Positions 22,123 through 37,409 of a stretch of 64,000 bases of DNA are shown in pieces. Under the pieces are notes generated by a model that was not told the origin of the DNA, ran no database searches, and saw only the letters and a list, made by a program, of their open reading frames with translations. Source of the stretch: Planktothrix rubescens CCAP 1459/22. GTDB taxonomy: Bacteria; Cyanobacteriota; Cyanobacteriia; Cyanobacteriales; Microcoleaceae. Location: positions 5,165,501-5,229,500 of the forward strand of contig LR882958.1 of the NCBI GenBank assembly GCA_904830895.1, read 5' to 3'. The translations under genes were made by a program, and so were the position numbers. Positions within the stretch are counted from its first letter, which is position 1. Each line of letters opens with the position of its first letter.

Positions 22123-22658
22123 TTTTCCTCTAAATTAGGAACAAAAAAGACTTCTCCGATCTCAATCGAGCTTTCTCTGCCTTTAAGGGTTGGGTTAACT
22201 GCAACAATTTTTGAAAATAACTGACTGCTACCGTAAAATTGAGCAGCAATTTTATTCAGAGAATCTCCCCGTTTAACGGTGTAATAAAAACCCCCACAGG
22301 ATGATTGAGATCGAGTAGATTTTGCAGTAGATTTGATAGTAGGAGGCTTTAATTCGGGTAAAGGGGTGGTAGTAGTTGCTGTTGAGACTGGCGGAGATGG
22401 TTTAGTAGCAAATAGAGAGGTTCCCATTGCTCCTAAACCGAACCCTAAAACCAGAATTAAAATGGCTAAAATCACCAATTTTCCCGAAATATTGGGTTGA
22501 GTATTTAACGAATTTCCTGCGGGAATTACTATTGATTTTTCGTCAACTATAGGGAGTTCTTGTAGTTGGCGAATTAGAGATAAATCCGTTTCGCAATTCG
22601 GGCAAATATTGTCTTCTATTTCGGGGCGATCGCAAACTGGACAAGTTAATTTAATCAT
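22113..22658 (-). CDS. Zinc-ribbon, transmembrane, LysM protein
   Basis: 181 residues in three parts. An N-terminal zinc ribbon (CPVC at 6-9, CPNC at 19-22) is followed by a transmembrane helix (about 60-84). After a Pro/Thr-rich linker comes a C-terminal LysM domain (about 128-174; YTVKRGDSLNKIAAQFYG, then NP and a VFFVP end). LysM binds peptidoglycan-type glycans, so the protein may span from a cytoplasmic zinc ribbon to the periplasm. Its ATG overlaps the dnaK-like stop codon by one base (TAATG). The combination is unusual and suggests membrane tethering of the Hsp70 machine. Confidence 0.8.
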   Translation of the reverse strand: MIKLTCPVCDRPEIEDNICPNCETDLSLIRQLQELPIVDEKSIVIPAGNSLNTQPNISGKLVILAILILVLGFGLGAMGTSLFATKPSPPVSTATTTTPLPELKPPTIKSTAKSTRSQSSCGGFYYTVKRGDSLNKIAAQFYGSSQLFSKIVAVNPTLKGRESSIEIGEVFFVPNLEENCP

Positions 22659-24868
22659 TAGCGTGTTAATCCTGTAGCAATAGTTCCGGTGGGTAAATCC
22701 TGATCTAAATATTTCATAATATCAGGACGAAGTTCATCAAAAATACGATTGATTTCATATTCATTCCCCTGTTTTAAAGCACTAATTAGTTGGGAAAATT
22801 TACCTTCCATGACTCTAGCATGACTAGGATTAATCCGATAAGCTTGTGCAATTCCTTCACGAGTTAGACAGATTAACTTAACTGGATCTGGCAGGTTCTC
22901 ATACTCTCGTCTTGCATCTTCTGCTAGTTTTTGCAAGGCTGATTTATCATTACGTTCTAGGGCTTGATTTAAGTCTTGAACTAAGGTTTGTAATCGCTGT
23001 TTTTGGGCGGGATGAATTAAGGAATCACAAACCTCTAGGACAAACTCAAACATAGTTTGATAGAATTGAGCAGTATCTCGTTCTTCCGAGGCAAAATTCT
23101 CTAATTCTTTGAGTTTATTCTGAGCAGCTTCTAAGCGATCTGATTGAATCTGATCATTGTGATAAATTTGATTGGCTGACTTGATTACCTCTCCCGCAAT
23201 TTCATTGGCATTTTGCACACCCGTTTCTGTTAAATTAGCAGCCGCATTCAGTTCTTTAATTCTTTGTTCCACCTGTCGAGAGATTTCTTCATTTATCCCT
23301 CCGCGAGAGAAAGAACAACTCACTTTAACCTCTGGTTTGTTTTTGAGTGCAGCCATCATTTGTAAGGAGTTATTTTGTTCATCTAATTCGACCGTTACTA
23401 ACACTTCTGTTCCCCGTGGATAGGGTTGATCTAAGGCTAACCACATATCGCCAATGCGTTCATCTCGGTCAGTGTTATCTAAATCTTTTCTCACCAGATC
23501 GGGACTAAAAAATTTAAAATGAATTAAGCGTTGTCCGTCAGCTTCTGTTTTGAAATTATGGAATTTTTTAACCGGAAGAATCTCTCCTTGCGGAATAATT
23601 ATAAATCGAGGATCATCGACTAATTCAATACAATAATCACGGGAAACTGTTGTGACTTTTTCGGTTAATCCGGCTGCTACAATTGCCGCCCCTTCTGCAA
23701 CTGCATACATGGGATTAGGATGTACTAAAACTTGATTGATTGGGAAAGCTTCTCGAATTTTTTGTTGGACTATAGGAACCTGTGAGGAACCTCCAACTAA
23801 CAAAATTACATCAATTTGATCTAAAGGATAATCAGAATATTTGATCACATCATAGCAAATTTTAACGGAACGCTCAATTAAAGGTGTAATTAATTGCTCA
23901 AATTTTTGACGAGTAATGGTAACTTGAATGGGAACCGCCATTCCTAATTCATCTAATAGAGGTGTGGAAGTAATAATCTCGGCTGAAGGCTGACTACTGA
24001 GTTGAATTTTGGCTTTTTCCGCTTCAATTTTCAGTTCTCCTAATAAACGAACCCGTTGATAATGGGGCATTTTGGCAATTAATTGATCAAGATTATTTAA
24101 ACCTTCTTGACGGGCGACTTCTTGCTTAACAAATTCAATAATTGAGTGATCAAAATCATCTCCTCCTAACCATAAATCCCCGGCTTTCGCAGATTCAATA
24201 AATTGATTGCCCACCGCCGTCACAATTGAACAATCTAAAGTTCCACCCCCGAAGTCATAAACTAAAAGGGTTTTAACTTCATCAGAATTAGGACTATAAC
24301 TATAGGAAATAGCAGCAGCAGTGGGTTCGGGAAGCAGTTCTCGTAAACTTAATCCGGCTTTCCCAGAGGCGATTTGAGTTGCATATCTTTGTTTATCATT
24401 AAAATAGGCAGGAATAGTAACAACGGCTTGATTAATAATACTTTTCTGTCCGGTTTTAGCTTGGTGAGTTTGAGCATTTTGGACTAATTTTTTGAGAATT
24501 TCTGCCGCAATATCTTCAGGTTGATATTCTTTTCCCCCTAACCAAACGGAAAGACTATTATCTGTTCCTTGAGTGGATTTAGTAATTTTATAACCAAAGC
24601 GAGATAATTGTTCTTGAATAACCGGATCATTAAACCCTCGTCCGATGAGACGTTTAATCGAAATGATCACGTTTTCGGGATCGTTTTGCAATTGATTATA
24701 GGCACTATTTCCAACTTTAATTTTACCTTGATCTAAGGCGACGACAGAACGGGTTAATTTTCGATCTGGTGGGGTGTTATCCTCTGCCGTTACGACATCA
24801 GTATGGGCTAATTTAAAAGCTGCTACTGAGTTGGTTGTACCGAGATCAATTCCAACGATGTTACCCAT
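22658..24868 (-). CDS. Variant Hsp70 (DnaK-like)
   Basis: 736 residues. The ATPase domain (about 1-400) is well preserved: phosphate-1 GIDLGTTNS, IPAYFNDKQR, phosphate-2 VYDFGGGTLD, and the adenosine loop LLVGGSSQVP. The substrate-binding half diverges from DnaK. A short beta-region (about 410-540) is followed by about 190 charged helical residues, without the EEVD-like acidic tail. It heads an operon with zinc-ribbon/LysM, TPR, J-like and GrpE-like genes, so it probably forms a dedicated machine. Membrane or cell-envelope placement is inferred from the partners. The general cellular DnaK is expected elsewhere. Confidence 0.9.
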   Translation of the reverse strand: MGNIVGIDLGTTNSVAAFKLAHTDVVTAEDNTPPDRKLTRSVVALDQGKIKVGNSAYNQLQNDPENVIISIKRLIGRGFNDPVIQEQLSRFGYKITKSTQGTDNSLSVWLGGKEYQPEDIAAEILKKLVQNAQTHQAKTGQKSIINQAVVTIPAYFNDKQRYATQIASGKAGLSLRELLPEPTAAAISYSYSPNSDEVKTLLVYDFGGGTLDCSIVTAVGNQFIESAKAGDLWLGGDDFDHSIIEFVKQEVARQEGLNNLDQLIAKMPHYQRVRLLGELKIEAEKAKIQLSSQPSAEIITSTPLLDELGMAVPIQVTITRQKFEQLITPLIERSVKICYDVIKYSDYPLDQIDVILLVGGSSQVPIVQQKIREAFPINQVLVHPNPMYAVAEGAAIVAAGLTEKVTTVSRDYCIELVDDPRFIIIPQGEILPVKKFHNFKTEADGQRLIHFKFFSPDLVRKDLDNTDRDERIGDMWLALDQPYPRGTEVLVTVELDEQNNSLQMMAALKNKPEVKVSCSFSRGGINEEISRQVEQRIKELNAAANLTETGVQNANEIAGEVIKSANQIYHNDQIQSDRLEAAQNKLKELENFASEERDTAQFYQTMFEFVLEVCDSLIHPAQKQRLQTLVQDLNQALERNDKSALQKLAEDARREYENLPDPVKLICLTREGIAQAYRINPSHARVMEGKFSQLISALKQGNEYEINRIFDELRPDIMKYLDQDLPTGTIATGLTR

Positions 24869-24952
24869 GATGTTTGTCCTAATTTAATCTAATATTGATG
24901 ATTTGTTTGAGTGTAGAAACCAAGTTTCTTAGGGTTATGTTTAATTCATGTT

Positions 24953-25153
24953 TTACCCCCTACTTAACTCTGGAATTTTTTGGATTAGATACGCATTACT
25001 TCGCAATAGTTTTCGAGCGAGTTGTTGTTTTTGGATAAAGTTGGGTGATAAATTTTGAGATGAACCTCCTAAACCTAAACGGTAGATCACTTCTTTCGCC
25101 GCAATGGAGCGATAATCAAACCCCATTGAGTCGGCATAAAGGGCGCGGGAAGT
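24953..25153 (-). pseudogene. C-terminal gene fragment upstream of dnaK-like gene
   Basis: An open minus frame with no start ends in TAA at 24953. It reads SRALYADSMGFDYRSIAAKE, then VIYRLGLGGSSQN, then a basic helix. Its composition is coding-like, but I do not recognise the family. It stops being open exactly where the 450-bp direct duplication begins (25154), so the duplication apparently cut the gene. Confidence 0.5.
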
Positions 25154-25608
25154 ATCGCATCCATCATTTTTGAGTTATATCTTAGGAGTTTATACCTCAC
25201 ATATTGTTTTGTCAATCAGTGAAATTACGGAACTTTCGTTTCATATTTTTTTGAAGTTTAGGCTCAATCTACCCCTCGTTAGTCGAGCTATTTCACTAAA
25301 ATATGATCTCTAAAACCCAGAGATAATCGTGCTACCAGTCAGAATCTGATTCGTTTCCCTCCCACATCTCCCGTTCTGAATCTCTTTCTAATTCCCGATC
25401 TAAGGAGTTTTGTTCTCGGTGATCATCCATCGTAACTATCCTGAACATCCCGGTCGGAGTCATATTCGTGGTCGTTGTTGTCGTAACCGTCCTCACCTGG
25501 GCCAAAATTATCGTAATCCATAGTCAGAATCCCTTATGATCACTTCTACTGACCTATTGCAACCTGCGAACAAAATTACGCAAATTTTCAAAAAATTTTT
25601 TTTAGAGT
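25154..25608. repeat. 450-bp direct duplication, copy A
   Basis: Nearly identical to 32041-32492 in the same orientation, from ATCGCATCCATCAT to TTTAGAGT, with scattered substitutions and a 4-base insertion near 25422. It contains AT-rich motif copy 2 (25569-25603) and the broken copy of the acidic gene. The two copies bracket xisHI and the ubiquitin-like operon. No terminal inverted repeats or transposase are visible. Confidence 0.9.
25332..25521 (-). pseudogene. Frameshifted copy of the acidic 61-residue gene
   Basis: Same reading as 32221-32406 for the first 31 codons. A 4-base insertion then shifts the frame into a TGA, giving a 32-residue product. The rest of the ancestral frame, down to the DSDW ending, is still present. 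It is decayed relative to the intact copy. Confidence 0.85.
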
Positions 25609-25790: not shown

Positions 25791-26207
25791 ATGCCTGCAA
25801 AGGATATCTACCATGATGCTGTTAAAATAGCCTTAGAAAAGGATGGCTGGACAATTACCAAAGATCCCCTAGTCCTGCAATGGGGGGCTAAGGATTTGTT
25901 TGTGGACTTAGGGGCTGAAAAATTACTTGCAGCCCAAAAAAATCATGAAAAAATTGCTGTTGAAATTAAAAGTTTTGTGGGTAGTTCCCAAGTTAATGAT
26001 TTAGAAAAAGCCGTAGGTCAGTATATTGTTTATCGAAATATTTTAGAAGAAATTGAAACTGACAGGGTTTTATATTTAGCAATTTCCCAAAAGGCGTTCC
26101 GAGATATTTTTATTGAACCGTTAGGTAGTCTAGTTTTAAGAAAAAATCAACTACATTTACTTGTTTTTAACCCTCAAAATCAGGAGGTTATACAATGGAT
26201 ACTTTAA
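25791..26207 (+). CDS. xisH: XisH family protein
   Basis: 138 residues, full length for XisH. The start MPAKDIYHDAVKIALEKDGW and the segment IAVEIKSFVG are typical. The fold is related to PD-(D/E)xK nucleases, with a D(x)n-ExK-like core (KDLFVDLGAE then VEIKS). XisH and XisI were named as factors needed for fdxN element excision in heterocystous Anabaena, but they occur widely in cyanobacteria without that element and look like a two-gene mobile or toxin-antitoxin-like unit (inference). AAGGAG precedes the ATG. xisI overlaps by 13 bases. Confidence 0.93.
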   Translation: MPAKDIYHDAVKIALEKDGWTITKDPLVLQWGAKDLFVDLGAEKLLAAQKNHEKIAVEIKSFVGSSQVNDLEKAVGQYIVYRNILEEIETDRVLYLAISQKAFRDIFIEPLGSLVLRKNQLHLLVFNPQNQEVIQWIL

Positions 26208-26530
26208 CAAAATACCAAACCATTATTTATCAAATTTTAAACGAATATGCTAAAATTCCCTATTCCTATGGAGAGCTAGAAAGGAGGTTTATTATTAGTG
26301 AGGACAAAAATAGTTATTTATTAATGACCCTAGGATGGCAAGGAGATCAACGAGTACATGGCTGCTTAATTCATTTAGAGATAAAAGATGATAAAATTTG
26401 GATTCAACGGGATGGAACAGAAGACGGTATTGCTGAAGAATTAGTTAAGGCTGGTATCTCTAAAGAAGATATTGTTTTAGCCTTTCAACCGCCAGAAATT
26501 CGCTCCTATACAGAATACGCTGTTAACTAA
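26195..26530 (+). CDS. xisI: XisI family protein
   Basis: 111 residues, full length. Typical XisI features are the N-terminal YQTIIYQILNEYAKIPYS, the central YLLMTLGWQGDQRVHGC, IWIQRDGTEDGIAEELV and the terminal FQPPEIRSYTEYAVN. It overlaps xisH by 13 bases, so the two are probably translated together. It is the only plus-strand unit inside the minus-strand island, consistent with separate acquisition. Confidence 0.93.
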   Translation: MDTLTKYQTIIYQILNEYAKIPYSYGELERRFIISEDKNSYLLMTLGWQGDQRVHGCLIHLEIKDDKIWIQRDGTEDGIAEELVKAGISKEDIVLAFQPPEIRSYTEYAVN

Positions 26531-26685: not shown

Positions 26686-27384
26686 TCAAACAACATCTAT
26701 CCACTGAATATTATTAGGTTTTGGCGGCATTGGGATGTCTCGCCATTCAATAGAAGGTAAAGAATTATCTTGGGGAGATTCTGGTTCAGTTACAAGAAAT
26801 GGGATTTCAGGGATATTATTAATAGTTGATTCTCGGTTATTAGATTCTTGTTGAGTCATTTCTGGTACAGTTACTTCCTGTTGTACTGTTGACTCCTGTA
26901 AGGGTAAAAACAATTCAGGTTTAAACCAAGTTTCACCCCCAACAAATAATTCCTCTACAACCATTATTTCAATATTGAGGGAATGGCATTTTCTCCGTAG
27001 TTCTCGACTACTAGCCAGGAATACTATTTGAGATTCAAGGATTTCAGCAAGATGCAGTGAACTTAACAAATAACAATCTAATAAATTATTATTATCCAAA
27101 GGTATATTTAAGATATTCAACTGATCGCCATAATTTTTTTCATTGATGAAATAAATTATTCCATTATTAAGGTTTCTAAAAATTAAATCATTAGAATGGG
27201 CTTCCGCCTCCAAAACATCCAGTATTTGAGTAGCAGTTGTGGTTGCATTTGCAAAATTACCATTTTTGAGATAACTCAGTTGTGTATAAAGATATTTAGG
27301 TAAAACCATATCTTTGGAACTTTGAATAATAAGTTCGGGCTGACTCATACATAAATCTGGTTCGATACAGTAGAATTTTTTCAT
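26686..27384 (-). CDS. Degenerate PIN-like protein with disordered tail
   Basis: 232 residues. Residues about 1-150 resemble a PIN domain: an N-terminal strand (FYCIEPDLC), MVLPKYLYTQLSYLKNG like the VIP..V..EL..LK segment, then NNLLDCYLLSSLHLAE and IVFLASSRELRRKCHSLNI like the C-terminal half. The first catalytic Asp (usually DTN) is replaced by the IEPDL context, so nuclease activity is doubtful. Residues 155-232 are a Ser/Pro/Gln/Glu-rich tail ending with two short Trp motifs (IEWRD, Trp214; IQWID, Trp228). It is the last gene of the ubiquitin-like operon, 46 bases after the TPR gene. The PIN assignment is by pattern only. Confidence 0.55.
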   Translation of the reverse strand: MKKFYCIEPDLCMSQPELIIQSSKDMVLPKYLYTQLSYLKNGNFANATTTATQILDVLEAEAHSNDLIFRNLNNGIIYFINEKNYGDQLNILNIPLDNNNLLDCYLLSSLHLAEILESQIVFLASSRELRRKCHSLNIEIMVVEELFVGGETWFKPELFLPLQESTVQQEVTVPEMTQQESNNRESTINNIPEIPFLVTEPESPQDNSLPSIEWRDIPMPPKPNNIQWIDVV

Positions 27385-27430: not shown

Positions 27431-28957
27431 TTAGATTATTTGATTTTGTAAAGCATCTAGTTTAGCTCGAAGATAATCATTAGGATCAATATCTAAAGCT
27501 TTTTGATAATTTTCAATAGCTTTATTACTGTTTCCTAAAGCTTTATAAGCATAAGCTTGTTGAGCATAGGCTTGAGATAACCAGCTATTAGTATGAGTCT
27601 GCTTAAAACTAAGACTAATAAGACTAATAGCTTTATTACTATCTTCAAGAGCTTGTTGATATTTTCCTAATGACAGATGAGAAAAACATCGCTTAATATA
27701 AGCAGGAATATTACGAGGAGCAATACTGATAATTAGGGTACAATCTTCTACTGCTGGCTGATATTGACCTAATTGAATATAAGCATCTCTGCGCCAACTG
27801 TAAACCTGAATATCATTAGGGTTAAGGGTTAACGCTTTTGTAAATTGTTCAATAGCTTGCTGATATTTTTCTTGATTAATCAGAGTAATTCCCTGATTAA
27901 AATATTGCTCATATAAACGATTCTCAGTATTAGTTAAATTAGTTAGATGTTGATGAGCATTAACATGATATTGCTCAAATAAACGATTCTTAGCATTAGT
28001 TAGATGTTGATGAGCATTAACATGATTAGGGTTAAGTCTAATCGCTTCTTTACAGTCATCAACAGCTTGTTGATACTCTCCTAATTCCATCTGAGCCAAT
28101 GCTCGGTTATAATAAGCATTAGCATGATTAGGATTCAGCCTAATGGCTTGGTTAGAGTCATTAAGAGCTTGCTCATAATTTTTTAGAGAATTATAAGCAC
28201 TTGCTCGGCCAATATAAGCACTAGCATGATTAGGATTCAGCCTAATGGCTTGGTTGCAATCATTAATAACTTCCTGATACTTATTTAAAGAATAATAAAC
28301 CTTACTTCGCAAAACGTAAGCATTAGCATGATTAGGATTCAGCCTAATTGCTTGGTTAGAGTCATTAAGAGCTTGCTCATAATTTTTTAGAGAGTTATAA
28401 GAATAACTTCGCCAAACGTAAGCATCAGCATGATTAGGATTAAGGCTTAATGCTCTCGTAAATCTGTCAATAGCTTGCTCATAGTTTTCATGATTACAGG
28501 CTAAAATACCCTGATTATAATAGTCATCGAAAGACAGATGGTGGGGTAAAGTATAGGCTGTTATTTTATCATTTGTTTGGCATTGATCACATCTATTATT
28601 GATATATAGGTAACTGTCTTCATGATAGCCAAGTTGACAGCGAACACAAAGATAAATTGTTTCTCCAGGTTTAAATTCTTCTCGACTGACTAAATCTTTT
28701 TGTCCAATTAAGTTTCTCAACAGTTCATCAATATCAAAGAAGTGTTGACTTCCGCTTAAAAAATCGTTATCAACAATAGGATTTGATGTCTGTGATGATG
28801 ACAATGTTGTAGATGTGGGATCTTCTATCCAACTAATACCATGTCTATCTACAGTTGTAGAAGAAGACGAGCTTGTAGTATTGGGTTGATTTTGCATTTG
28901 AGAAGTAGACGACTCAGAGGAGGATCGTGAATTGTTAGAAGATGCCACATTATTCAA
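27431..28957 (-). CDS. Zinc-ribbon plus TPR protein of the Ub-like operon
   Basis: 508 residues. The N-terminal 75 residues are Ser/Thr-rich and disordered and contain ISWIED (Trp43). A metal-binding segment follows: CVRC, then H seven residues after its start, then CDQC about 20 residues on. From about 130 to the end there are nine or ten TPR units, several nearly identical (YEQALNDSNQAIRLNPNHA), indicating recent repeat expansion. Role unknown. A substrate adaptor or E3-like component is a reasonable guess given E1, E2, modifier and JAMM upstream. The start is TTG, overlapping the stop of the 46-residue gene; Met21 at 28897 is the alternative. Confidence 0.8.
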   Translation of the reverse strand: MNNVASSNNSRSSSESSTSQMQNQPNTTSSSSSTTVDRHGISWIEDPTSTTLSSSQTSNPIVDNDFLSGSQHFFDIDELLRNLIGQKDLVSREEFKPGETIYLCVRCQLGYHEDSYLYINNRCDQCQTNDKITAYTLPHHLSFDDYYNQGILACNHENYEQAIDRFTRALSLNPNHADAYVWRSYSYNSLKNYEQALNDSNQAIRLNPNHANAYVLRSKVYYSLNKYQEVINDCNQAIRLNPNHASAYIGRASAYNSLKNYEQALNDSNQAIRLNPNHANAYYNRALAQMELGEYQQAVDDCKEAIRLNPNHVNAHQHLTNAKNRLFEQYHVNAHQHLTNLTNTENRLYEQYFNQGITLINQEKYQQAIEQFTKALTLNPNDIQVYSWRRDAYIQLGQYQPAVEDCTLIISIAPRNIPAYIKRCFSHLSLGKYQQALEDSNKAISLISLSFKQTHTNSWLSQAYAQQAYAYKALGNSNKAIENYQKALDIDPNDYLRAKLDALQNQII

Positions 28958-29090
28958 AAGATAGAATCCAAAAGATTAAACCCAATGGAAGAACAATAAA
29001 CCAGAGGGGCGGAATTAATAAACACAAGAAAACTGAGCAGCCTATACAGCCACAATATCCTCCTGAGCTATCACTCTGTCTATTACTCAT
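28950..29090 (-). CDS. 46-residue Cys-rich membrane peptide
   Basis: A short frame filling the gap between the JAMM and TPR genes. It starts MSNRQSDSSGGYCGCIGC and continues as one very hydrophobic helix or hairpin (residues 19-44, rich in L, I, P, W, F), ending ILSFE. Three Cys in CGCIGC precede the membrane segment, suggesting metal binding or lipidation. The stop overlaps the start codon of the TPR gene, as expected for a real, coupled gene. No good Shine-Dalgarno is seen: AGGAG is about 30 bases upstream. No homologue is known to me. Confidence 0.6.
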   Translation of the reverse strand: MSNRQSDSSGGYCGCIGCSVFLCLLIPPLWFIVLPLGLIFWILSFE

Positions 29091-29130
29091 ACATCTATAA
29101 TCTATGGGATTTTGAAGTTGTGATCTCCTA

Positions 29131-29901
29131 TTAATTGGTATCCGATTTTAGGGCTTCTTGTCTCGTGTCTTGAGTCCTAAAAAAATTAGGTTCGACTTTT
29201 TGAGCTTTTTCCCCTAAAAAGTAACCAATTTTATTTTGTACTGGATCACAGACAATGGATAAACACCAAGGATGGGGGAAAAAAGAGCGTTGAGTCCGCA
29301 TATCTGTTCCCGACATAAAGACACCAATATTAGGGTGAGAATGATACCAGCCAATAATATTTGCTTCTGGATGAGTTGCTTTAGCGTGGTTCATAATTCC
29401 GACCCAAGAATCTGGTGTAAATTCTAAAGATGCTCCAGTTCCAATGGTTGCGGGTGCAGGTACAGCGGCTGTTACTTCCACATAAATCCCAAACGTAGGA
29501 TCAGTGTAAGCATTACCAAATAAAATTCCTCCCTGTTCAACCCTTAAGTTACTTTTTAAATGCTCTTTTAGCTTTTTTAGAGCATCTTCTAAGATATAAA
29601 CTTTAGGGTATTCTGGAGTAATATTGCGCTCTTGTATAAATTCTTGAATTGGCTTTTCTGTTGGTTTAAAAACATCCTCAGATTCTACCCATTCAATCAT
29701 CGATTGAGATTTAATTACCTCCTGTTTTTCTACACTATATTTATCTGGATTTGATTCATCCTGATCAAGCGCTTCTGGAATTGATTCATCTTGTCCTTGA
29801 GGCAAACCCAAGGTTTCTGAATCATTTTTTTTTGCCATCATAGCTTTTACAAAACCCCATATTTTCTCTGGTTTTTTAATGAAAGTTGTACCCCAGTTCA
29901 T
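29131..29901 (-). CDS. JAMM/JAB isopeptidase-like protein
   Basis: 256 residues. The JAB1/MPN domain (about 95-250) has the complete zinc site: Glu122 (VEQGGILFG), then HSHP with His187 and His189, Ser197 and Asp200 (HxH-x7-S-x2-D). Such enzymes cleave isopeptide or peptide bonds after ubiquitin-like modifiers, so this is the likely deconjugating or processing enzyme. The N-terminal 90 residues are acidic and disordered with the motif MIEWVE (Trp71), similar to motifs in the two downstream proteins. ATG overlaps the E2 stop as ATGA. Confidence 0.92.
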   Translation of the reverse strand: MNWGTTFIKKPEKIWGFVKAMMAKKNDSETLGLPQGQDESIPEALDQDESNPDKYSVEKQEVIKSQSMIEWVESEDVFKPTEKPIQEFIQERNITPEYPKVYILEDALKKLKEHLKSNLRVEQGGILFGNAYTDPTFGIYVEVTAAVPAPATIGTGASLEFTPDSWVGIMNHAKATHPEANIIGWYHSHPNIGVFMSGTDMRTQRSFFPHPWCLSIVCDPVQNKIGYFLGEKAQKVEPNFFRTQDTRQEALKSDTN

Positions 29902-30407
29902 AGATCATTCCAAACGATTTGAGCTTGTGGCTTTTTAGCACTTTTGAAGGTTTGATTATCCACCGGATAACGGTTAGGGTTCCGATTAGCCCAGTCTTTT
30001 GCATCACCATTAGCAGGACTATTCAAATTTAGAACGTCCTTGGAATACTGGATAATTTTGCCAATCCGAATCACTAATTCAGAAAGATTTTCTGCCATTG
30101 TCCAATAGGAACCCAGACAAACCCGTTGGTTTGTATAAACATTTGGGTGAAAAATAGGGGTTAAAAACTCAGCAGAAGGTGAATTTTTGGGATAGTCATT
30201 GCTGAGAGTAATTTTAACTCGATGATTTGTGCGGAAAACTGGATCATTACCTTGCAGTCGTTCAATTCCTTTGCATCGGTATTCAATCACATATTCATAG
30301 GCGGGTTTACCTTGGCTAGAAATTAAAGCAATCGTTCCACCTGAATTGGCAATCAGTTGTGAAACTTCATTAAAGTCATTTTCTAAGCGTGTTTCACGAA
30401 TTCCCAT
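29898..30407 (-). CDS. E2-like ubiquitin-conjugating enzyme
   Basis: 169 residues with a canonical UBC core: the strand segment YPKNSPSAEFLTPIFHPNV, the HPN tripeptide at 87-89 and the active-site Cys97 in VCLG, eight residues after HPN as in eukaryotic E2s. The C-terminal part is helical and ends with a positively charged tail. It would accept the modifier from the E1 as a thioester. Start ATG 30407 lies one base after the modifier's TGA. An in-frame TTG at 30413 is a less likely start. Presence of HPN is notable because many bacterial E2-like proteins lack it. Confidence 0.92.
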   Translation of the reverse strand: MGIRETRLENDFNEVSQLIANSGGTIALISSQGKPAYEYVIEYRCKGIERLQGNDPVFRTNHRVKITLSNDYPKNSPSAEFLTPIFHPNVYTNQRVCLGSYWTMAENLSELVIRIGKIIQYSKDVLNLNSPANGDAKDWANRNPNRYPVDNQTFKSAKKPQAQIVWNDL

Positions 30408-30409
30408 AA

Positions 30410-30664
30410 TCAACCTGCCTCTAAAATAGGGTAAACTTCAAGAACATCATTTTCCATAACCCCAACTGTTCCTAGTGTTGTTCCTGGATCAAGTTGTTGG
30501 CCTGTTCTTTCTACACGCACAGCGTAACTGGTTTTATTGGGAAGGTTCCAACGTTGTTGCGTAGCTTGAACCAGTTCTTCAACGCTGAGATTTTTAGGTA
30601 AAGTCACAGACGCTTTACGAGTTTGATCAGCCGAGCGAATTACTAAAGAAATTGAATCAGACAT
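30410..30664 (-). CDS. Ubiquitin-like modifier
   Basis: 84 residues with beta-grasp character: two N-terminal strands (ISLVIRSADQTRKASVTL), a helix (SVEELVQATQQRW), then strands ending GVMENDVLEVYPILEAG. The chain ends in a single exposed glycine (EAG), so activation by E1 needs no processing. The start at 30664 has AGGAG 6 bases upstream, overlapping the E1 stop. The frame extends upstream into the E1 gene but that part has no beta-grasp character. Position between E1 and E2 and the length fit a modifier rather than a ThiS/MoaD sulfur carrier. Confidence 0.88.
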   Translation of the reverse strand: MSDSISLVIRSADQTRKASVTLPKNLSVEELVQATQQRWNLPNKTSYAVRVERTGQQLDPGTTLGTVGVMENDVLEVYPILEAG

Positions 30665-30672
30665 ACTAACTC

Positions 30673-31830
30673 CTAAATTGGACAAAACTGAATTGCGATT
30701 TGACCTTTCGAGGTCTTGCAATGTAGTATCTCGTTCTCTGGTAGACATAATTCTCCCAAGGTTAAATTTTCTCCACATTCCTGTAGTGAAAAATTCTGAA
30801 TCACTTCAAAACTTCTTTCTTGGTGACACTTAGGACAAGCAAGTTTAGATTCAGAATATCGACTTAGAGGAAGATTAACGCGCTCTTGATAACCACATTC
30901 TGAATTCAAGCATTGCATTGTACTAATGATTTCTTTTCGCAATGAGAGAATCAGTTCTGTAAATCCAGATTCTTGAATCTGCCTAAGAATTTGTTGAACA
31001 GTCAGATTAGAATTATAACCAATCTGAACTTGAGGTTCAAGAGCTAAATCATGAGCAATACAAGTTTCTTGGCGTTGAATATTTACCTTAAATACCATCC
31101 AAGGATTTAAGCCTAAAAATACTTTTTCTCCAGGGTTGAGAAAACCAGGTTGTTGATGTAAATAAAGTAAGGCTTGCTGTACCTGCATAGCTCCAACAAT
31201 GGAAGCAATTGTGGCAGTGGTTGGCATGGCAGTTTCTGGAATATTCCGCTTCATTCCTTGGCAAGAATAACGTTGGTTGCGTCGTTCCCACATTGCATTA
31301 GAAATGCTGCATTCATAGCAAGCTGCCTCGGTTTTAGGGTCAAAAAAACTAACTTCTCCTTCCCCTACACCAAGACCACCATTAATCCAAGGAATTCCAG
31401 CGCGATAAGCCATTTGGTTGATGGCCCAGCGTGCATTTACACTATCTAAACAACCAATAATAATGTCATGTTTTCGGACATCTCCAATACTGAGATCAAA
31501 TTCCAAATCTCCGTAAATCGTTTGGATAGATAATTCGGGATTAATTTCTAAAGCTCGTTGACGTGCAACTTCGACTTTTGGCAATCCAACATCAGACTCT
31601 CGAAATAAAACAGAACGGGTCAGGTTGGTAATAGAAACAGTATCAAAGTCAATGATAGTTATATTACCAACACCAACAAGGGCTAGGTTTTTAAGAACTT
31701 CATTTCCTAATGCACCTGCTCCTGCAATTAAAACCTTTGCAGATTTTAATCGTTCTTGTTGCCACCAATCAATTAAATGGTGCCGATCATAACGGCTTTC
31801 AACTTCAGTTTCGATAACAAATGAATCCAT
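30673..31830 (-). CDS. E1-like activating enzyme (ThiF/MoeB fold)
   Basis: 385 residues. The adenylation domain has the nucleotide loop GAGALG (37-42), Asp61 for ribose and the Arg finger region NLTRSVLF. The stretch CYEC (171-174) with SC at 189-190 aligns with MoeB/ThiF zinc ligands and the following Cys, so Cys190 is the candidate catalytic Cys. A second Cys set in the C-terminal third (CLNSEC and CPKC, about 300-330) forms a zinc ribbon absent from simple ThiF. The start at 31830 begins the conserved region. An upstream TTG (31887) would add 19 residues. First gene of the operon, behind a good promoter. Confidence 0.93.
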   Translation of the reverse strand: MDSFVIETEVESRYDRHHLIDWWQQERLKSAKVLIAGAGALGNEVLKNLALVGVGNITIIDFDTVSITNLTRSVLFRESDVGLPKVEVARQRALEINPELSIQTIYGDLEFDLSIGDVRKHDIIIGCLDSVNARWAINQMAYRAGIPWINGGLGVGEGEVSFFDPKTEAACYECSISNAMWERRNQRYSCQGMKRNIPETAMPTTATIASIVGAMQVQQALLYLHQQPGFLNPGEKVFLGLNPWMVFKVNIQRQETCIAHDLALEPQVQIGYNSNLTVQQILRQIQESGFTELILSLRKEIISTMQCLNSECGYQERVNLPLSRYSESKLACPKCHQERSFEVIQNFSLQECGENLTLGELCLPENEILHCKTSKGQIAIQFCPI

Positions 31831-31896
31831 GAGAGCCAAGTTAGAGTTTATAGTCCCCCTAAAATAGAGGAATTTACCGAGTAGCAATGAATGGGG

Positions 31897-31925
31897 ATAT
31901 TAGAAAAAAATATTGATCCGCTCAA
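31897..31925 (-). promoter_or_regulatory. Promoter of the ubiquitin-like operon
   Basis: On the minus strand TTGAGC (31920-31925) and TAATAT (31897-31902) are separated by exactly 17 bases, about 70 bases before the E1 start. No operator palindrome is seen beside it. Confidence 0.6.
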
Positions 31926-32040
31926 TGCTTTTAATTTGGGTAATTTAAGGAGCTACTAATAATACAAATATCAGCGATGCTCTGATGAAATTGGTGTGAT
32001 CAAAGAAATAGATACTCAAAAATTAGGATGAATTAGGGCG

Positions 32041-32492
32041 ATCGCATCCATCATTTCTTGAGTTATATCTTAGGAGTTTATACCTCACATATTGTTTTGT
32101 CAATCAGTGAAATTACGGAACTTTCGTTTCAGATTTTTTTGAAGTTTAGGCTCCGTCTACCCCCTCGTTAGTCGAGCTATTTCACTAAAATATGATCTCT
32201 AAAACCCAGGGATAATGGTGCTACCAGTCAGAATCTGATTCGTTTCCCTCCCACATCTCCCGTTCTGAATCTCTTTCTAATTCCCGATCTAAGGAGTTTT
32301 GTTCTCGGTAATCATCGTAACTATCCTGAACATCTCGGTCGGAGTCATATTCGTGGTCGTTGTTGTCGTAACCGTCCTCACCTGGGCCAAAATTATCGTA
32401 ATCCATAGTCAGAATCCCTCATGATCACTTCTACTGACCTATTGTAACCTGCGAACAAAATTACGCAAATTTTCAAAAAACTTTTTTAGAGT
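32041..32492. repeat. 450-bp direct duplication, copy B
   Basis: Partner of 25154-25608 in the same orientation. It carries the intact acidic 61-residue gene and AT-rich motif copy 4 (32454-32488). It lies upstream of the E1 promoter, so together the copies bracket the Ub-like operon and xisHI. Confidence 0.9.
32221..32406 (-). CDS. Very acidic 61-residue protein
   Basis: Over half the residues are Asp, Glu, Asn or Ser, with Tyr spaced through the N-terminal half (MDYDNFGPGEDGYDNN) and a charged helical C-terminal half (LDRELERDSEREMW), ending SDSDW. It has no signal peptide, few hydrophobics and only Arg as basic residue; there is no Lys, so it cannot be a Lys-conjugated substrate. Predicted disordered. 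The frame survives here but is broken in copy A. GAGGG lies 10 bases before ATG. Function unknown; a role with the neighbouring operon is speculative. Confidence 0.6.
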   Translation of the reverse strand: MDYDNFGPGEDGYDNNDHEYDSDRDVQDSYDDYREQNSLDRELERDSEREMWEGNESDSDW

Positions 32493-32493
32493 A

Positions 32494-32554
32494 GTAGGGG
32501 CGAGTTCAGTCGAGTTGCTGTTAATTAGGAAAGATATTGTTGAACCCGCCCTTA
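32494..32554. repeat. Dispersed hairpin repeat (GTAGGGGCGAGTTCA type)
   Basis: GTAGGGGCGAGTTCA pairs imperfectly with TGAACCCGCCCTTA. It belongs to the same family as 5034-5094 and lies just after the arfB stop codon, where it may terminate transcription. Confidence 0.65.
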
Positions 32555-32564
32555 TAAACTTCTT

Positions 32565-32981
32565 TTACTCATCAATGACTTTTCCCCGCATGGTCTTCAA
32601 ATGTGAGTGCTTTGTTTTGCTATCCAGACGCCTTCTCTGAGAACTGCGAGTCGGTTTACTCGGTTTACGAGGTTTAGGAAGCGAAATCGCACTTTTAATT
32701 AAGTCTTGAAGTCGTTGTAAAGCTTCTTCCCGATTTTGTTCTTGACTACGGTATTCCTGTGCTTTGATAATAATTACCCCTTCTTTACTAATACGTTGAT
32801 CATTTAATGTTAATAGTCGCTGTTTGTAATATTCAGGTAATGAAGAAGCGGAGATATCAAAACGTAGGTGAATAGCTGTTGCTACCTTATTTACATTTTG
32901 CCCACCTGCTCCCTGAGAGCGAATTGCACTCATTTCAATTTCATGCTCTGGAAGGCTGAAAATGTTAGAAATTTTTAACAT
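32565..32981 (-). CDS. arfB: Peptidyl-tRNA hydrolase ArfB (ribosome rescue)
   Basis: 138 residues. The catalytic GGQ loop is at 26-28 ([12 protein letters not shown]), within a single release-factor domain-3 fold, and no stop-codon recognition domain is present. The C-terminus is a strongly basic tail ([16 protein letters not shown]) that in ArfB/YaeJ enters the empty mRNA channel. It hydrolyses peptidyl-tRNA on ribosomes stalled without a stop codon, as backup to tmRNA. Length is normal. It lies 34 bases downstream of an ABC ATPase gene and may be co-transcribed with it. Confidence 0.93.
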
Positions 32982-33015
32982 AATTGATTAATAATTTGAG
33001 GAAAAAATAGAAAAA

Positions 33016-34356
33016 TTAAGCACGGTAAGGGAGGATGGCTAAGTCTGTTTTTGGATCGAATAAATGAATTTTTTCCGGCGTTAGCGCTAACCAAATTTTT
33101 TCACCCTGTACAAATTCGGTTTCGGCGGGAATTCTGACTTGTAAGGAAAAAGGAAGATTATTTTCTCCAAATAGATGAACCCATAATAATGTTTCATGTC
33201 CTAATGCTTCCATTCTATCAACAATTACGGGTAAATTTTTAGTAGCTGGACAACTAACAATTAAGTGTTCTGGTCTAATTCCTAAGATTAATTTTTCTTC
33301 CTTTTGGCGAGGTAAAACCGTTTGCCAAATATCGGGTAAAGTTAAACGGAATTGGGGATGGGTAATTAATAAAGGGGCGATAAATTTAACCGGGATAAAA
33401 TTCATTGGAGGAGAGCCAATAAACTCGGCTACAAAGCGATTATTAGGACGATTATACAGTTCTAAAGGAGGAGCAACTTGTTGAATTCGTCCTTGATTCA
33501 TAACAGCAATTCGGGAACCCATAGTCATTGCTTCGACTTGATCATGGGTGACATAAATGGTGGTTGTGCCTAATTTTTTTTGTAATTCTACAATTTGGGC
33601 GCGGGTTTCGGTTCTTAATTTTGCATCTAAATTTGATAGGGGTTCATCCATTAAGAAAACCTGGGGATTTCTGGCCATGGCTCGACCTAATGCGACCCGT
33701 TGTTTTTGTCCGCCTGATAGTTGTTTGGGATATCGATCTAATAATGATTCAATTTGTAATAATTTGGCAACGGTTAAGACTCTTTCATCTACGGCTTTTT
33801 CTCGTTCTGAAAGATAGCGAAATGGGGAAGGAAGCGATCGCGTTATTCCTACAATAGCATCTTCTAACCATAAGGGAGCAAAGATTTGATAGTCTCCAAT
33901 TGTCAAGGATAATTGTTGATTAGAATGTAAATTAGAGTCTTTTCTGGGAATCATCAAAGGCTGTTTAGGTTCTGTTTCTCGATAGGAACGACGCAGCCCA
34001 AAAGCTAAGTTATCATAGACTTTTAAGTGAGGGTACAGAGCATAGTTTTGAAACACCATGGCAATATCTCGCGCCTTGGGGGGTAATTCATTAACTAATT
34101 TATCCCCGATATAAATATTACCGCCAGTAATCGTTTCTAAGCCTGCAATTAACCTTAATAGGGTACTTTTTCCACAACCTGACGGCCCCACTAATACCAT
34201 GAATTCCCCATCAAATATATTCAGATGCACCCGTTTTAAAATAGCTTGACGGGTCAGGGTTGACTCTTGAAGTTCCGATGATTCTGTTTCCTCGGAGGCG
34301 GTTTGACGACGAATGGGAAAACTTTTATAAATATTATCTAAAATAACTTCTGCCAT
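33016..34356 (-). CDS. Sugar-type ABC transporter ATPase (UgpC/MalK-like)
   Basis: 446 residues. Walker A GPSGCGKST, Q-loop VFQNYALYP, signature LSGGQKQR, Walker B FLMDEPLSNLDAKLR and switch His in VTHDQ are all intact. The C-terminal part (about 330-446) holds the TOBE/regulatory domain of the CUT1 group. Two insertions distinguish it from MalK: about 17 residues near 18-36 (SEETESSELQES) and about 65 residues between Q-loop and signature. One such ATPase often serves several sugar or polyol permeases. No permease is linked here. Confidence 0.9.
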   Translation of the reverse strand: MAEVILDNIYKSFPIRRQTASEETESSELQESTLTRQAILKRVHLNIFDGEFMVLVGPSGCGKSTLLRLIAGLETITGGNIYIGDKLVNELPPKARDIAMVFQNYALYPHLKVYDNLAFGLRRSYRETEPKQPLMIPRKDSNLHSNQQLSLTIGDYQIFAPLWLEDAIVGITRSLPSPFRYLSEREKAVDERVLTVAKLLQIESLLDRYPKQLSGGQKQRVALGRAMARNPQVFLMDEPLSNLDAKLRTETRAQIVELQKKLGTTTIYVTHDQVEAMTMGSRIAVMNQGRIQQVAPPLELYNRPNNRFVAEFIGSPPMNFIPVKFIAPLLITHPQFRLTLPDIWQTVLPRQKEEKLILGIRPEHLIVSCPATKNLPVIVDRMEALGHETLLWVHLFGENNLPFSLQVRIPAETEFVQGEKIWLALTPEKIHLFDPKTDLAILPYRA

Positions 34357-34390
34357 TTTAATTTTACCTAATTTTTTAGATCCCCCTAAA

Positions 34391-34409
34391 TCCCCCTTAA
34401 TAAGGGGGA
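34391..34409. repeat. Palindrome TCCCCCTTAATAAGGGGGA
   Basis: A perfect hairpin between the topoisomerase and ABC genes. The same family occurs inside the pbpC coding region near 57380. It may act as a terminator of the topoisomerase transcript. Confidence 0.7.
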
Positions 34410-34431
34410 CTTTGACTGTTAATTAAATACC

Positions 34432-36981
34432 CTAGGATTTGATCGAGATAATTCTCTCATCGGGTTTAAGTTTGAAAATGCGATCGCCTGTACTATCTTT
34501 TGTGGATAGATTAATTTGATCCGTGGGAACATGAATAATCCGATTATCACTGGTTAACAGATGGATTTGTTGTCGAGGTTTAGCCGGAGCAATTCCTACT
34601 AATATATCATTAGGAGATTTAAACTGGATCATGGAAATTCCGATCCCCCCTCGGTTACTTCCCCGCACTAATTCCATCGCAATTCGTTTAATATAACCCT
34701 GTTCTGTTACTAATAATAAACTGCCTTTAATTGATAGGGTAACACATCCGATTAAATGTTCTTTTTGTCGTAAGCGAGTGGCTTGGGAACCCTGGGCAAC
34801 TTTACCCATCGGAGGTAGTTGTTCATCATTAAGATCAAATCGTAAGAGTCGCCCCCCGGAAGTAGCCAAGACTACTTTTTCATCGGCATTAGAAAGGGTA
34901 GCAAAAGATAATTCATCGTCATCTTTTAGTTTAACAATGGTACTGCCTCGGTTGGTTAATTCCGCTAATTCTATTAGGGGTAAACGTTTAATTTTCCCCT
35001 GTTGAGTTAGGGTAATTAAATCGGTTTTATCGGGAAAAGCTGATAATAGAAATTGAGCAATCATTAAGTCTTGGGGATTAATTGATGTATCTTTATAGGC
35101 AGAAGGTGATAATAAGGTAATAATTGGTTTTCCCTTAGACCGATTATTACCCACAGGAATATCCGCTACACTTAAAGGATAAGCTTTTCCAGTTTTCAAT
35201 ACCATGACTAGATTTTGACTGGTTTTAGTATTGTGGGTTTGGGTGATAAAATCATCGGTTTCCTCAATATTAATAGCGGTCTTATTTTCAGTTTGATTCC
35301 GTTTGGAATCTGCGGTTTTGGGAGATACTCGCCGAATATAACCGCGATGGGTAATTTCAATTACGGTTTCTTCGTCCACCGGGGGTAAGGGTTGTAATAC
35401 ATCGGGAGGAGATGTCAGTTCTAATATCTTTTCTTTGGATTTTTTAGCGGTTTTATCCTCAGAGGTGATAGTAGTTTGACCTTGGGGATAAATAATTCGA
35501 GTGCGTCGTTCATCGCCATATTTTCGTTTGAGCGATCGCAATTCTTTCTTCAAGGATTTTAACAGTTCAGGACGTTCATCTAGTAACCGTCTTAACTGTT
35601 CAATATTAGTAGTTAATTGGGTAAATTCTTCCTGTAATTTTTGCCGTTCTAACCCGGTTAATCGACGCATAGGCATGGCTAAAATGGCATCGGATTGAAT
35701 ATCACTAAACCCTAATTGATTTTCTAAGGTTATTTTTGCTGTTGAACCATCGGGGGCATTTCTGAGAATTTCAATCAAACTATCTAAATTTTCTAAAGCT
35801 AGTAATAACCCTTCCACTAAATGACAACGCCGTTCGGCGGCTTCTAATTCATGGCGGTATTGACGGGTTAAAGTTTGTTCCCTAAATGATAGAAATTCTT
35901 GGAGAATTTGTTTTAAACTTAATTGTCGGGGTTGTCCATTCACGATCGCCAAAAAAATCGCCCCAAACTTGGTCATTAATTCCGTTTGCTGATAGAGATG
36001 ATGTAACACCACTTCGGGAGAAAATTCCCGTTTTAATTCAATTACAACTCGAATGCCTTCGCGATCACTTTCATCCCTAATATCAGAAATTCCCTCTAAT
36101 TTTCCCGCATTAACTAACCCGGCAATTTTTTCGATCCAAGCTGCTTTATTCACCTGAAATGGCAATTCCGTGACCACAATAGCATTTTTAGTCCGACGTT
36201 TTTGGGCGGTGGGAACTTCTTCCATTTTTGCCACACCCCGCACCACAATACTGCCTTTTCCGTGATGATAAGCTTCAGCAATTCCTTCGGTACTAATAAT
36301 TTCTCCCCCGGTGGGAAAATCCGGCCCAGGAATCAATTCGATTAATTTTTGTTCGGATAATTCAGGTTGATCAATTAAGGCAATTAGTCCATCGACTACT
36401 TCCCCTAAATTATGGGGGGGAATATTCGTCGCCATCCCAACAGCAATTCCCGAAGATCCATTTAACAATAAAAACGGCAGTTGGGCGGGTAAAACCGTGG
36501 GTTCCTGTTGAGAATTATCGAAATTACTAATAAAATTAACTGTAGCTTCCCCGACTTGGGAAAGTAACCCTTCATGGCCCACCGCAGCTAAACGGGTTTC
36601 GGTGTAACGCATCGCCGCTGGGGGGTCATTATCCACAGACCCGAAGTTGCCATGACCTGCTAATAATGGGTAACGACTAGAAAATTCCTGAACCAGTCTC
36701 ACCAAGGCATCATAAACCGATTGATCCCCGTGGGGGTGATATTTCCCTAACACATCCCCAACTACCCGCGCACATTTGCGGTAGGGACGGTCGGGAGTTA
36801 ACCCCAATTCGTGCATCGCGTACAAAATCCGACGATGTACGGGTTTTAACCCATCGCGAACATCGGGTAAAGCTCGGCCAACAATCACACTCATGGCATA
36901 TTCGAGGTACGATTGTTGCATCTCGGTATGAAGCGATGTGGTGATCACTTGCCCAGAAAAGAGGTTTAACTGTTTAGCCAT
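34432..36981 (-). CDS. gyrA: Type IIA topoisomerase subunit A (GyrA/ParC family)
   Basis: 849 residues. The winged-helix DNA-cleavage domain has the catalytic Tyr126 in [10 protein letters not shown] and the preceding [10 protein letters not shown], in which Gln87 occupies the position of E. coli GyrA Ser83. The tower and coiled coil follow, then a six-bladed C-terminal pinwheel (repeats such as [22 protein letters not shown]). The GyrA-box (QRRGGKG) needed for DNA wrapping is not present where expected; the segment reads KRNQTENKT. It is therefore perhaps the second, ParC-like A subunit many cyanobacteria carry. Both forms are commonly labelled gyrA. Confidence 0.92.
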
Positions 36982-37409
36982 GAGTTTAGTTGAGTCTACA
37001 GCGATAGGGTTCTGATCTTAGATTATGGCGTGATCGGTTGTTTCGATCACGGCTATCTAACAAAGCTCAGGGGATCTGGTTACTTTTTTGAGGATAACCA
37101 ATTGCGTTCAATTTGACTAAATTCGGTGGGACTAGACATTTTGCCGTTCTCTAAAACCCTGTGTATTGATTATAAGCTCTAGCTTTCAGGTTTCACATAT
37201 ACAGATTTTTGCCGATGTTTTTGCCGATCAGTTCAAAGGGAGATCAATTTCCGCAGCGTTTCTTAGACAAAGGTTTCTGGCATTTACTATCGGGCTATTA
37301 TTGTCAACCCGTTGAATGGGCGTGGTATGATAACCTTTCGGTACTGGAGAGTGAAAAATAGAGATATTTGGTAAATCTATTTGAATAGTATATCGGGTGG
37401 GAGACTCAG
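36982..37409. other. Intergenic region between gyrA and response regulator
   Basis: 430 bases between divergent genes. I see no gene, RNA or strong palindrome, only presumed promoters. GGTGGGAG lies close to the response regulator's ATG. Confidence 0.5.

Follow-up and report, generated by a model that had tools for sequence, protein, structure and literature searches.

A stretch of 64,000 nucleotides from the cyanobacterium Planktothrix rubescens CCAP 1459/22 (assembly GCA_904830895.1, contig LR882958.1, forward-strand positions 5,165,501 to 5,229,500; hereafter the window) carries an operon whose products resemble the components of a ubiquitin conjugation pathway (Table 1). An earlier note on this DNA had listed four genes, coding for an activating enzyme (E1), a ubiquitin-like modifier (Ubl), a conjugating enzyme (E2) and a JAMM metalloprotease. 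All four are indeed present on the minus strand, arranged in an order shared by relatives; Pfam supports E1, E2 and JAMM, and gives the modifier alone a weak ubiquitin-type match. The quartet spans positions 29131-31830; the start at 28950 given in the note lies within the next gene. The overlaps of 0 to 8 bases reported there are only roughly right, as E1 and modifier are separated by 8 bases and the modifier and the ATG of E2 by 2 bases, while E2 and JAMM overlap by 4 bases (ATGA). The sole 8-base overlap occurs past the quartet, where a small hydrophobic frame runs into the TPR gene, which starts with TTG.

Table 1. Positions within the window of the operon genes, their sequence motifs and the flanking repeats.
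Feature	Position	Strand	Remarks
E1	30673-31830	minus	385 aa; Pfam ThiF 2.1e-55
Ubiquitin-like modifier	30410-30664	minus	84 aa, ends ...LEAG (Ala-Gly)
E2	29898-30407	minus	169 aa; His87-Pro88-Asn89 and Cys97; Pfam UQ_con 4.8e-12
JAMM/JAB metalloprotease (candidate deconjugase and modifier-maturation protease)	29131-29901	minus	256 aa; Pfam JAB 3.8e-9
Small frame with hydrophobic membrane-type segment	28950-29090	minus	8-base overlap with next start, different frame
RING-like and TPR protein, candidate E3	27431-28957	minus	TTG start; Pfam TPR_1 6.9e-60
Half-RING core	28580-28696	minus	D..S replacing first Cys pair, then C-x2-C-x4-YH-x2-S...C-x2-C (alignment)
Downstream protein, conserved	26686-27384	minus	ends in two W motifs; no Pfam match
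W motif IVWNDL, E2 C-terminus	29901-29918	minus	motif count
W motif IEWVES, JAMM N-terminal tail	29680-29697	minus	motif count
W motif ISWIED, RING-TPR linker	28820-28837	minus	loose form only
W motif 1 IEWRDI, downstream protein	26734-26751	minus	motif count and alignment
W motif 2 IQWIDV, downstream protein	26692-26709	minus	motif count and alignment
Left direct repeat	25167-25602		flanks segment, 436 bp
Right direct repeat	32055-32487		flanks segment, 433 bp

With all four protein types encoded together and their catalytic residues retained, the prediction of a conjugation-type operon is well supported, and every sequence test applied agrees with it. Each residue named in the note was found, namely GAGALG and Cys190 in E1, HPN and Cys97 in E2, and His187, His189, Ser197 and Asp200 in JAMM, which also has Glu122. 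The E1 contains one ThiF-type adenylation domain (Pfam, stretch 23-227). Its cysteines are laid out as Cys171/Cys174...Cys257, and the C-terminal region holds two more pairs, C307/C312 and C332/C335. In the PDB, the E1 family profile matched UBA7 (2.7e-46) and MoeB (2.3e-40), both values being sums over two stretches. Cys190 is conserved in 31 of 32 sequences, the exception being a truncated frame, and in a 24-row alignment Cys171, Cys174, Cys190 and Cys257 are invariant. The active cysteine of UBA5 and ThiF sits in the loop that corresponds to the Cys190 loop. Cys190, the candidate catalytic residue, is placed in this loop before a conserved PTT, near the UBA5 counterpart, though the alignment to UBA5 has a gap at Cys190 itself.

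The modifier has the length of 84 residues and the terminal glycine noted earlier. When searched alone against Pfam, it gave weak matches below cut-off to Rad60-SLD (4.3e-4) and YukD (1.6e-3). A profile of 26 modifiers matched mono-ubiquitin chains over nearly its whole length (positions 5-82 of 83), with E values of 2.3e-4 to 1.6e-3 among the best 60 of 323 matches; the 4.8e-37 reached by polyubiquitin is raised by the repeats. The last glycine of the folded part is present in 25 of 26 aligned modifiers, as Ala-Gly in 24 and as Gly-Gly in one (L042), and is missing from L033. In 10 of these 25, a tail of 1-12 residues extends past the glycine, so that trimming would be needed. Judged from these comparisons, the modifier can be assigned to the ubiquitin family with a C-terminal glycine. 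The E2 family profile matched UBE2B at 7.9e-15. H87, P88 and C97 are found in 34 of 34 E2 sequences and N89 in 31; in the window E2, Cys97 is followed by T at +6, A at +8 and E at +13. JAMM proteins share E122, H187, H189 and D200 without exception (32/32), and S197 in all but one. Relative to homologues in locus L028 that are 57-77% identical, the ratio of nonsynonymous to synonymous substitutions (dN/dS) is 0.06-0.17 for the four genes; since dS is saturated (1.7-3.2), only the direction of these low values is safe.

Scanning species genomes with the E2 profile yielded 34 loci, hosted by Planktothrix, Argonema, Okeania, Scytonematopsis, Halothece, Tychonema, Vibrio, Photobacterium, Cupriavidus, Sphingobium, Porticoccaceae, Desulfobacterales, Chloroflexota and others. 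Within the phylum, this E2 occurs in 13 of 386 genomes drawn, the present one included. All four genes in the order E1-modifier-E2-JAMM are found at 29 of the 34 loci across several phyla, from cyanobacteria to Vibrio and Chloroflexota; in L036, E1 is interrupted by the contig end. The five exceptions are L033, L056 (E2 only) and three others, L057 (Frankia, E2 and JAMM only), L058 and L059; in the last two, also from Frankia, a modifier was not found. L033 from Hormoscilla is a degraded copy with a shortened E1, no JAMM found and a modifier devoid of its final glycine. The E1 tree groups the loci by gene arrangement, in that each of three multi-row arrangements falls on one side of a branch supported at 100/100; eight rows belonging to no arrangement are uncounted, and the deep forks are weak, with several long branches meeting there. 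In a sub-type made up of L020, L042 and L074, JAMM is immediately followed by a VirD4-type coupling gene, recognised by eye in L020 and L042 and annotated in L074, which lies on a mobilizable plasmid. A J-domain family is present in seven loci (Pfam DnaJ 3.6e-8 for one tested member); in the five whose place was seen, the gene directly precedes E1 (L037, 6372-6629; L038, L047, L054 and L055).

Adjacent to the quartet, the note had placed a zinc-ribbon TPR protein. The TPRs hold up (Pfam TPR_1) and the zinc ribbon does not; the Cys-rich part preceding the TPRs is a candidate RING-like domain, degenerate and with one zinc site left, which we call the half-RING. This Cys-rich stretch recurs in a quartet-adjacent gene across other branches, located downstream in most cyanobacteria and upstream of E1 in proteobacteria, in L035 and in lineage f30. 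In a 21-row alignment, D13, C29 and C51 are invariant. The pattern is D-x2-[ST/D]...C-x2-[CH]-x4-[YF]-H-x2-S...C-x2-C, with departures in L044, L046, L051 and L054. The second site, C-x2-[CH]...C-x2-C, is kept in 18 of the 21 rows; the Tychonema-type rows L044, L046 and L051 retain just the final Cys of the second pair. A model built from this alignment strongly matched 22 of the 30 quartet-type loci L026-L055, a figure that is a count and not a test, as most of the same loci went into the model. Own-genome searches revealed a single copy each of this E2, the modifier and the half-RING, and one other E1-like gene located elsewhere, by eye a MoeB with a rhodanese.

The relationship of the half-RING to established RING families was assessed in several ways. 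Alone, the window domain scored 3e-3 against Prok-RING_1 (17.9 bits, below the 29.1-bit cut-off) and slightly better against DUF7630 (2.6e-3). A Prok-RING_1 search of 146 genomes returned 15 matches, three of which adjoin a quartet (L084, L085 and L088); a fourth of the same type, L089, lies on a separate contig, the quartet of that genome being located at the end of another. Prok-RING_1 proteins read C-x2-C...C-x2-C-x4-HH-x2-CW, the quartet-adjacent ones D-x2-[DT]...C-x2-C-x4-YH-x2-SW. Profile-profile comparison of the half-RING with six Prok-RING_1-type sequences, two above and four below the Pfam cut-off, gave a probability of 81% and an E value of 1.2e-5 over 47 columns. Controls against the same set were weaker (E1 zinc ribbon, 1.3%; E2 zinc ribbon, 31% over 27 columns), as was the half-RING against the E2 zinc ribbon (8.9%). 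We therefore rejected a zinc ribbon for the TPR protein, because the E1 and E2 ribbons of the same operons fail to align with the full core of Prok-RING_1-type sequences and the domain of the TPR protein does align. The half-RING makes it likely that the RING-TPR protein, a candidate at this stage, acts as E3. As the TPR neighbour carries a candidate degenerate RING, the word complete, used in the earlier note for the operon, is better supported than that note could say. By eye, the half-RING protein has an N-terminal hydrophobic segment in L026, L028, Okeania, Argonema and the proteobacterial loci read. This segment forms a single frame with the rest in L026; the window and the one genome that holds L027/L014 have it in a frame of its own, which shares 8 bases with the beginning of the TPR gene. 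Translational coupling, frameshifting and decay are candidate readings of the split.

A short motif centred on tryptophan (W motif) is common to several of the proteins. It was counted in 22 of the 34 loci (near copies and odd loci L027, L031, L033, L038, L044, L045, L048, L050 and L056-L059 omitted) as [ILVM]-x-W-x-[DEN], in its strict form followed by [ILVMFPS] and located at most 70 residues from an end. Strict matches are present in E2 in 13/22 loci, in JAMM in 10/22, in the RING protein in 6/20, in the downstream protein in 6/6 and in the J-domain protein in 2/4, the four being those caught by string search. E1 and modifier have none (0/22 each), and control flanking frames have 5 in 188. 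Of the five strict matches in the 48 long frames of the window, four lie in operon genes. Since E1 and modifier lack the strict motif, one of them is likely its receptor. LIR (LC3-interacting region, W-x-x-L) peptides, which the W motif resembles, bind ATG8-type modifiers. The downstream protein ends in two copies of the W motif, whose residues W214, I226 and W228 are invariant in an 8-member alignment. In L032 (10557-11966), a protein-kinase domain (Pfam 1.6e-30) is inserted ahead of the two W motifs, which are still kept. The designation of the downstream protein as PIN-like found no support in Pfam and NCBIfam searches of the window protein, nor in a homologue.

The sequence context indicates that the operon-bearing segment is mobile. 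It is bracketed by two direct repeats (436 and 433 bp) that share 96.6% identity over their whole length, and contains XisH and XisI genes on the plus strand (25791-26530; Pfam 4.8e-56 and 5.6e-46). Within the genus, E2 is found in 3 of 10 genomes including this one, and is absent from one labelled as the same species. A genome without the operon is collinear with window positions 20973-25158 and 31881-37117, except for the short stretch 34375-34429; between the first two blocks it has about 1.5 kb that form part of a 550-aa gene. Window positions 24953-25126 are a remnant, an end, of this 550-aa gene, whose full-length frame is present in the relative lacking the operon. The operon also resides on a mobilizable plasmid of Crinalium epipsammum, as E1, two small genes, E2, JAMM and a coupling-type gene of a type IV secretion system. 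E2 matched 1 of 72,556 plasmid records and 0 of 50,697 phage records. A peptide-pattern scan of IMG/VR identified one locus, L094 (IMGVR_UViG_2521172724_000002), a viral contig with a complete operon of half-RING, E1, modifier, E2 and JAMM, which lies between a group of portal-type, UmuD-type and DNA-polymerase genes and a group of restriction, methylase, holin and endolysin genes. The acidic neighbours by which the earlier note distinguished the operon are two copies of one small frame (25332-25505 and 32221-32406, ending ...NESDSDW) contained in the flanking repeats, and thus probably lie outside the machinery. The same frame occurs in several genus genomes without the operon.

Two of the 34 loci, picked because their flanks looked promising, were inspected with PADLOC. 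In Photobacterium, the operon is followed by one other gene and about 2 kb and then by a full QatABCD system; in Cupriavidus, it adjoins HEC-04, PDC-S28, type I restriction and a weak ZorA-type match. Owing to the way these loci were chosen, no rate of defence neighbours can be derived from them. This setting makes a role in anti-phage defence or in conflict between mobile elements likely.

We thus favour, with some confidence, a mobile and self-contained Ubl conjugation system, probably serving anti-phage defence or inter-element conflict. Parts, catalytic residues, gene order, W motif and mobility can be read from the DNA itself, and the kinship of the half-RING with RING domains is probable; from these we infer the most likely course of events. 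E1 would adenylate the C-terminal glycine of the modifier and take it over as a thioester on Cys190, from where it would move to Cys97 of E2. The half-RING of the TPR protein, membrane-anchored in several relatives as judged by eye, would serve as E3 and bring the charged E2 to targets held by the TPRs, whose amines would then be joined to the modifier. The JAMM protease may trim tailed precursors and remove the modifier again. Docking on a single common partner, most probably E1 or the modifier, would be the function of the W-motif peptides found in the tails of E2, JAMM, RING and downstream protein. A more far-reaching version, for which we would claim no great likelihood, is a full pathway of E1, E2, E3, modifier and deconjugase with a reader grammar of its own. 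Here, phi-x-W-x-[DE]-phi docking would be the counterpart of SUMO-interacting and LIR motifs, a one-zinc U-box-like RING-TPR protein would be the E3, and mobile elements and viruses would carry the whole for defence.

Several results weigh against these proposals. Among eight nearby window genes submitted to PADLOC, seven gave no defence gene, and the eighth, an ABC-transporter ATPase, matched ATPase models only. The operon itself returned partial E1 and JAB matches and an E value of 0.034 for the window E2, and no full-length known anti-phage system. In the candidate E3, the first zinc site is lost, its ligands being replaced by D, S/T/D and S. Prok-RING_1, the Pfam family matched by most half-RING rows, was hit by 8 of 21, at best with 1.5e-4 and always below cut-off. 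A PDB profile search with the half-RING gave weak zinc-finger and PHD matches (best 0.0074) that leave the fold unsettled. The half-RING model found no match in 7 of the 30 loci (L033, L036, L043, L045, L049, L050 and L053) and a weak one in L042 (E 0.09); L036 is cut by a contig end and L033 is degraded, and five Porticoccaceae/Cellvibrionales loci appear to do without the domain. The W motif was first noticed by eye and then counted, so its form was chosen after the data had been seen; in its loose form it also occurs in E1 (7/22, for the most part at constant positions within the fold) and in 12 of 188 controls. Despite the post hoc form, the contrast between the parts is still large.

J-domain genes in seven loci of relatives would also suit protein quality control, in which the modifier would mark misfolded or stalled proteins through TPR, J-domain and Hsp70-type partners. 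The RING-like and TPR layout of the candidate E3 recalls CHIP, the eukaryotic protein with a RING/U-box-type domain and TPRs, and an HSP70 gene (22658-24868; Pfam 5.3e-97) as well as a release-factor-type gene with an RF-1 domain (32565-32981) are located nearby. Both gene stretches, however, are syntenic in a relative that lacks the operon, which speaks against either being part of the unit; the HSP70 gene was accordingly rejected as an operon partner. Moreover, the seven-locus J-domain family has no member in cyanobacterial loci, and the patchy distribution of E2 within the genus, including its absence from the genome carrying the same species label, fits an accessory role. Quality control appears unlikely to us.

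Another reading is an addiction or element-stability module that mobile elements carry and that has no direct anti-phage action. The flanking repeats and the copies on a plasmid and a viral contig agree with such a module, and for related operons addiction or protection was proposed by Iyer 2006 (PMC1779556). Against it stand the two relatives among known defence genes, in the two loci looked at, and the fact that no toxin-antidote pair was recognised; the segment does contain the XisH and XisI genes. We regard a module of this kind as improbable. The prospect that the genes belong to cofactor sulfur transfer, where the E2-like and JAMM proteins would have subsidiary functions, had been raised in the earlier note as one that would overturn it. 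E1 is related to MoeB and ThiF, and JAMM proteins also process sulfur carriers. However, the E2 is a true one whose catalytic His and Cys are kept in all 34 sequences, neither a rhodanese nor a cofactor gene was revealed in the unit by Pfam and NCBIfam, ubiquitin is matched by the profile of the modifiers, and the genome holds its separate E1-like gene, MoeB plus rhodanese by eye, elsewhere. The NCBIfam ThiF and MoeB scores of the window E1 are far below their cut-offs. Given the true E2, the lack of a fused rhodanese and the separate E1-like gene, a sulfur-carrier system is highly improbable, and a mobile conjugation system remains our preferred explanation.

An apparently complete miniature ubiquitin system consisting of activator, tag, transfer enzyme, remover and probable ligase is a rare arrangement in bacteria. 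In the open-licence literature, as far as listings and opening lines of abstracts tell in searches aimed at this type of operon and not at the W motif, related operons are described and none was recognised as this one. Burroughs, Iyer and Aravind are said to have predicted prokaryotic E1-E2-RING-JAB-Ubl operons in 2011. The window operon shares with these, and with the Ubl system included in the FtsH-type vWA-MoxR ternary conflict systems (PMC7159879), the joint presence of E1, E2, JAB and a YukD/ubiquitin-type Ubl (the YukD match being below cut-off) and, if the candidate half-RING is one, of a prokaryotic RING-type E3. Unlike in these systems, its Ubl is a separate gene fused neither to E2 nor to EAD1, and no FtsH, vWA or caspase gene was seen in the unit. 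Its candidate RING is one zinc site short and, in the window, fused to TPRs, and a W motif is common to the parts.

The BilABCD system, which the note had counted among the relatives, likewise combines E1, E2, Ubl and JAMM in one operon in a defence setting. In that system, BilA consists of two Ubl domains, the active site of BilB is CEHH, and BilD has an inactive and an active adenylation domain with a Cys domain inserted (PMC11354881). We rejected this assignment, as all of these features are missing here: the E1 of 385 residues has a single ThiF stretch, the E2 has HPN in place of CEHH, and the Ubl is a single domain of 84 residues. The operons of Iyer type 6d (PMC1779556) have separate Ubl, JAB, E1-like and E2-like genes and a sporadic spread, as seen for the present family. 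Their E2 lacks the conserved active-site His, however, and they include a JAB-N domain and a further protein that is alpha-helical; His87 in 34 of 34 E2 sequences rules out this type. Types 6a-6c and the Cap2/Cap3 pair of the anti-phage system CBASS, with their E2-E1 fusion, metallo-beta-lactamase and nucleotidyltransferase or other partner, were discarded because the genes are separate here; the best PADLOC E1-E2 matches are confined to the middle and later portion of the models concerned. Type 6e, with poly-Ubl, inactive E2 and JAB-E1 fusion, has features that the window genes do not share. Bub operons (Ye 2026 and Gong 2025, as cited in PMC13373217) are bacterial ubiquitination-like operons linked to immune pathways, and in this general respect the window operon resembles them; no CapW, CapH/P or CapK/S gene was recognised by eye beside it.

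Bacterial Ubl pathways bear on the origin of eukaryotic ubiquitination. At the sequence level, E1, E2 and modifier are similar to eukaryotic UBA5/UBA1, UBE2A/B and ubiquitin. The family combines a compact single-domain E1, a eukaryote-type E2 with HPN and Cys, a modifier matching ubiquitin and a candidate E3, so that a minimal E1-E2-E3 pathway would become testable with five small genes. Whether there is a docking code could be tested at once and cheaply through the W motif, and a role in phage conflict directly through the copies on a viral contig and in defence islands. Unlike the eukaryotic system, this candidate pathway uses a single compact E1 and a degenerate one-zinc RING, all encoded in a bacterial operon.

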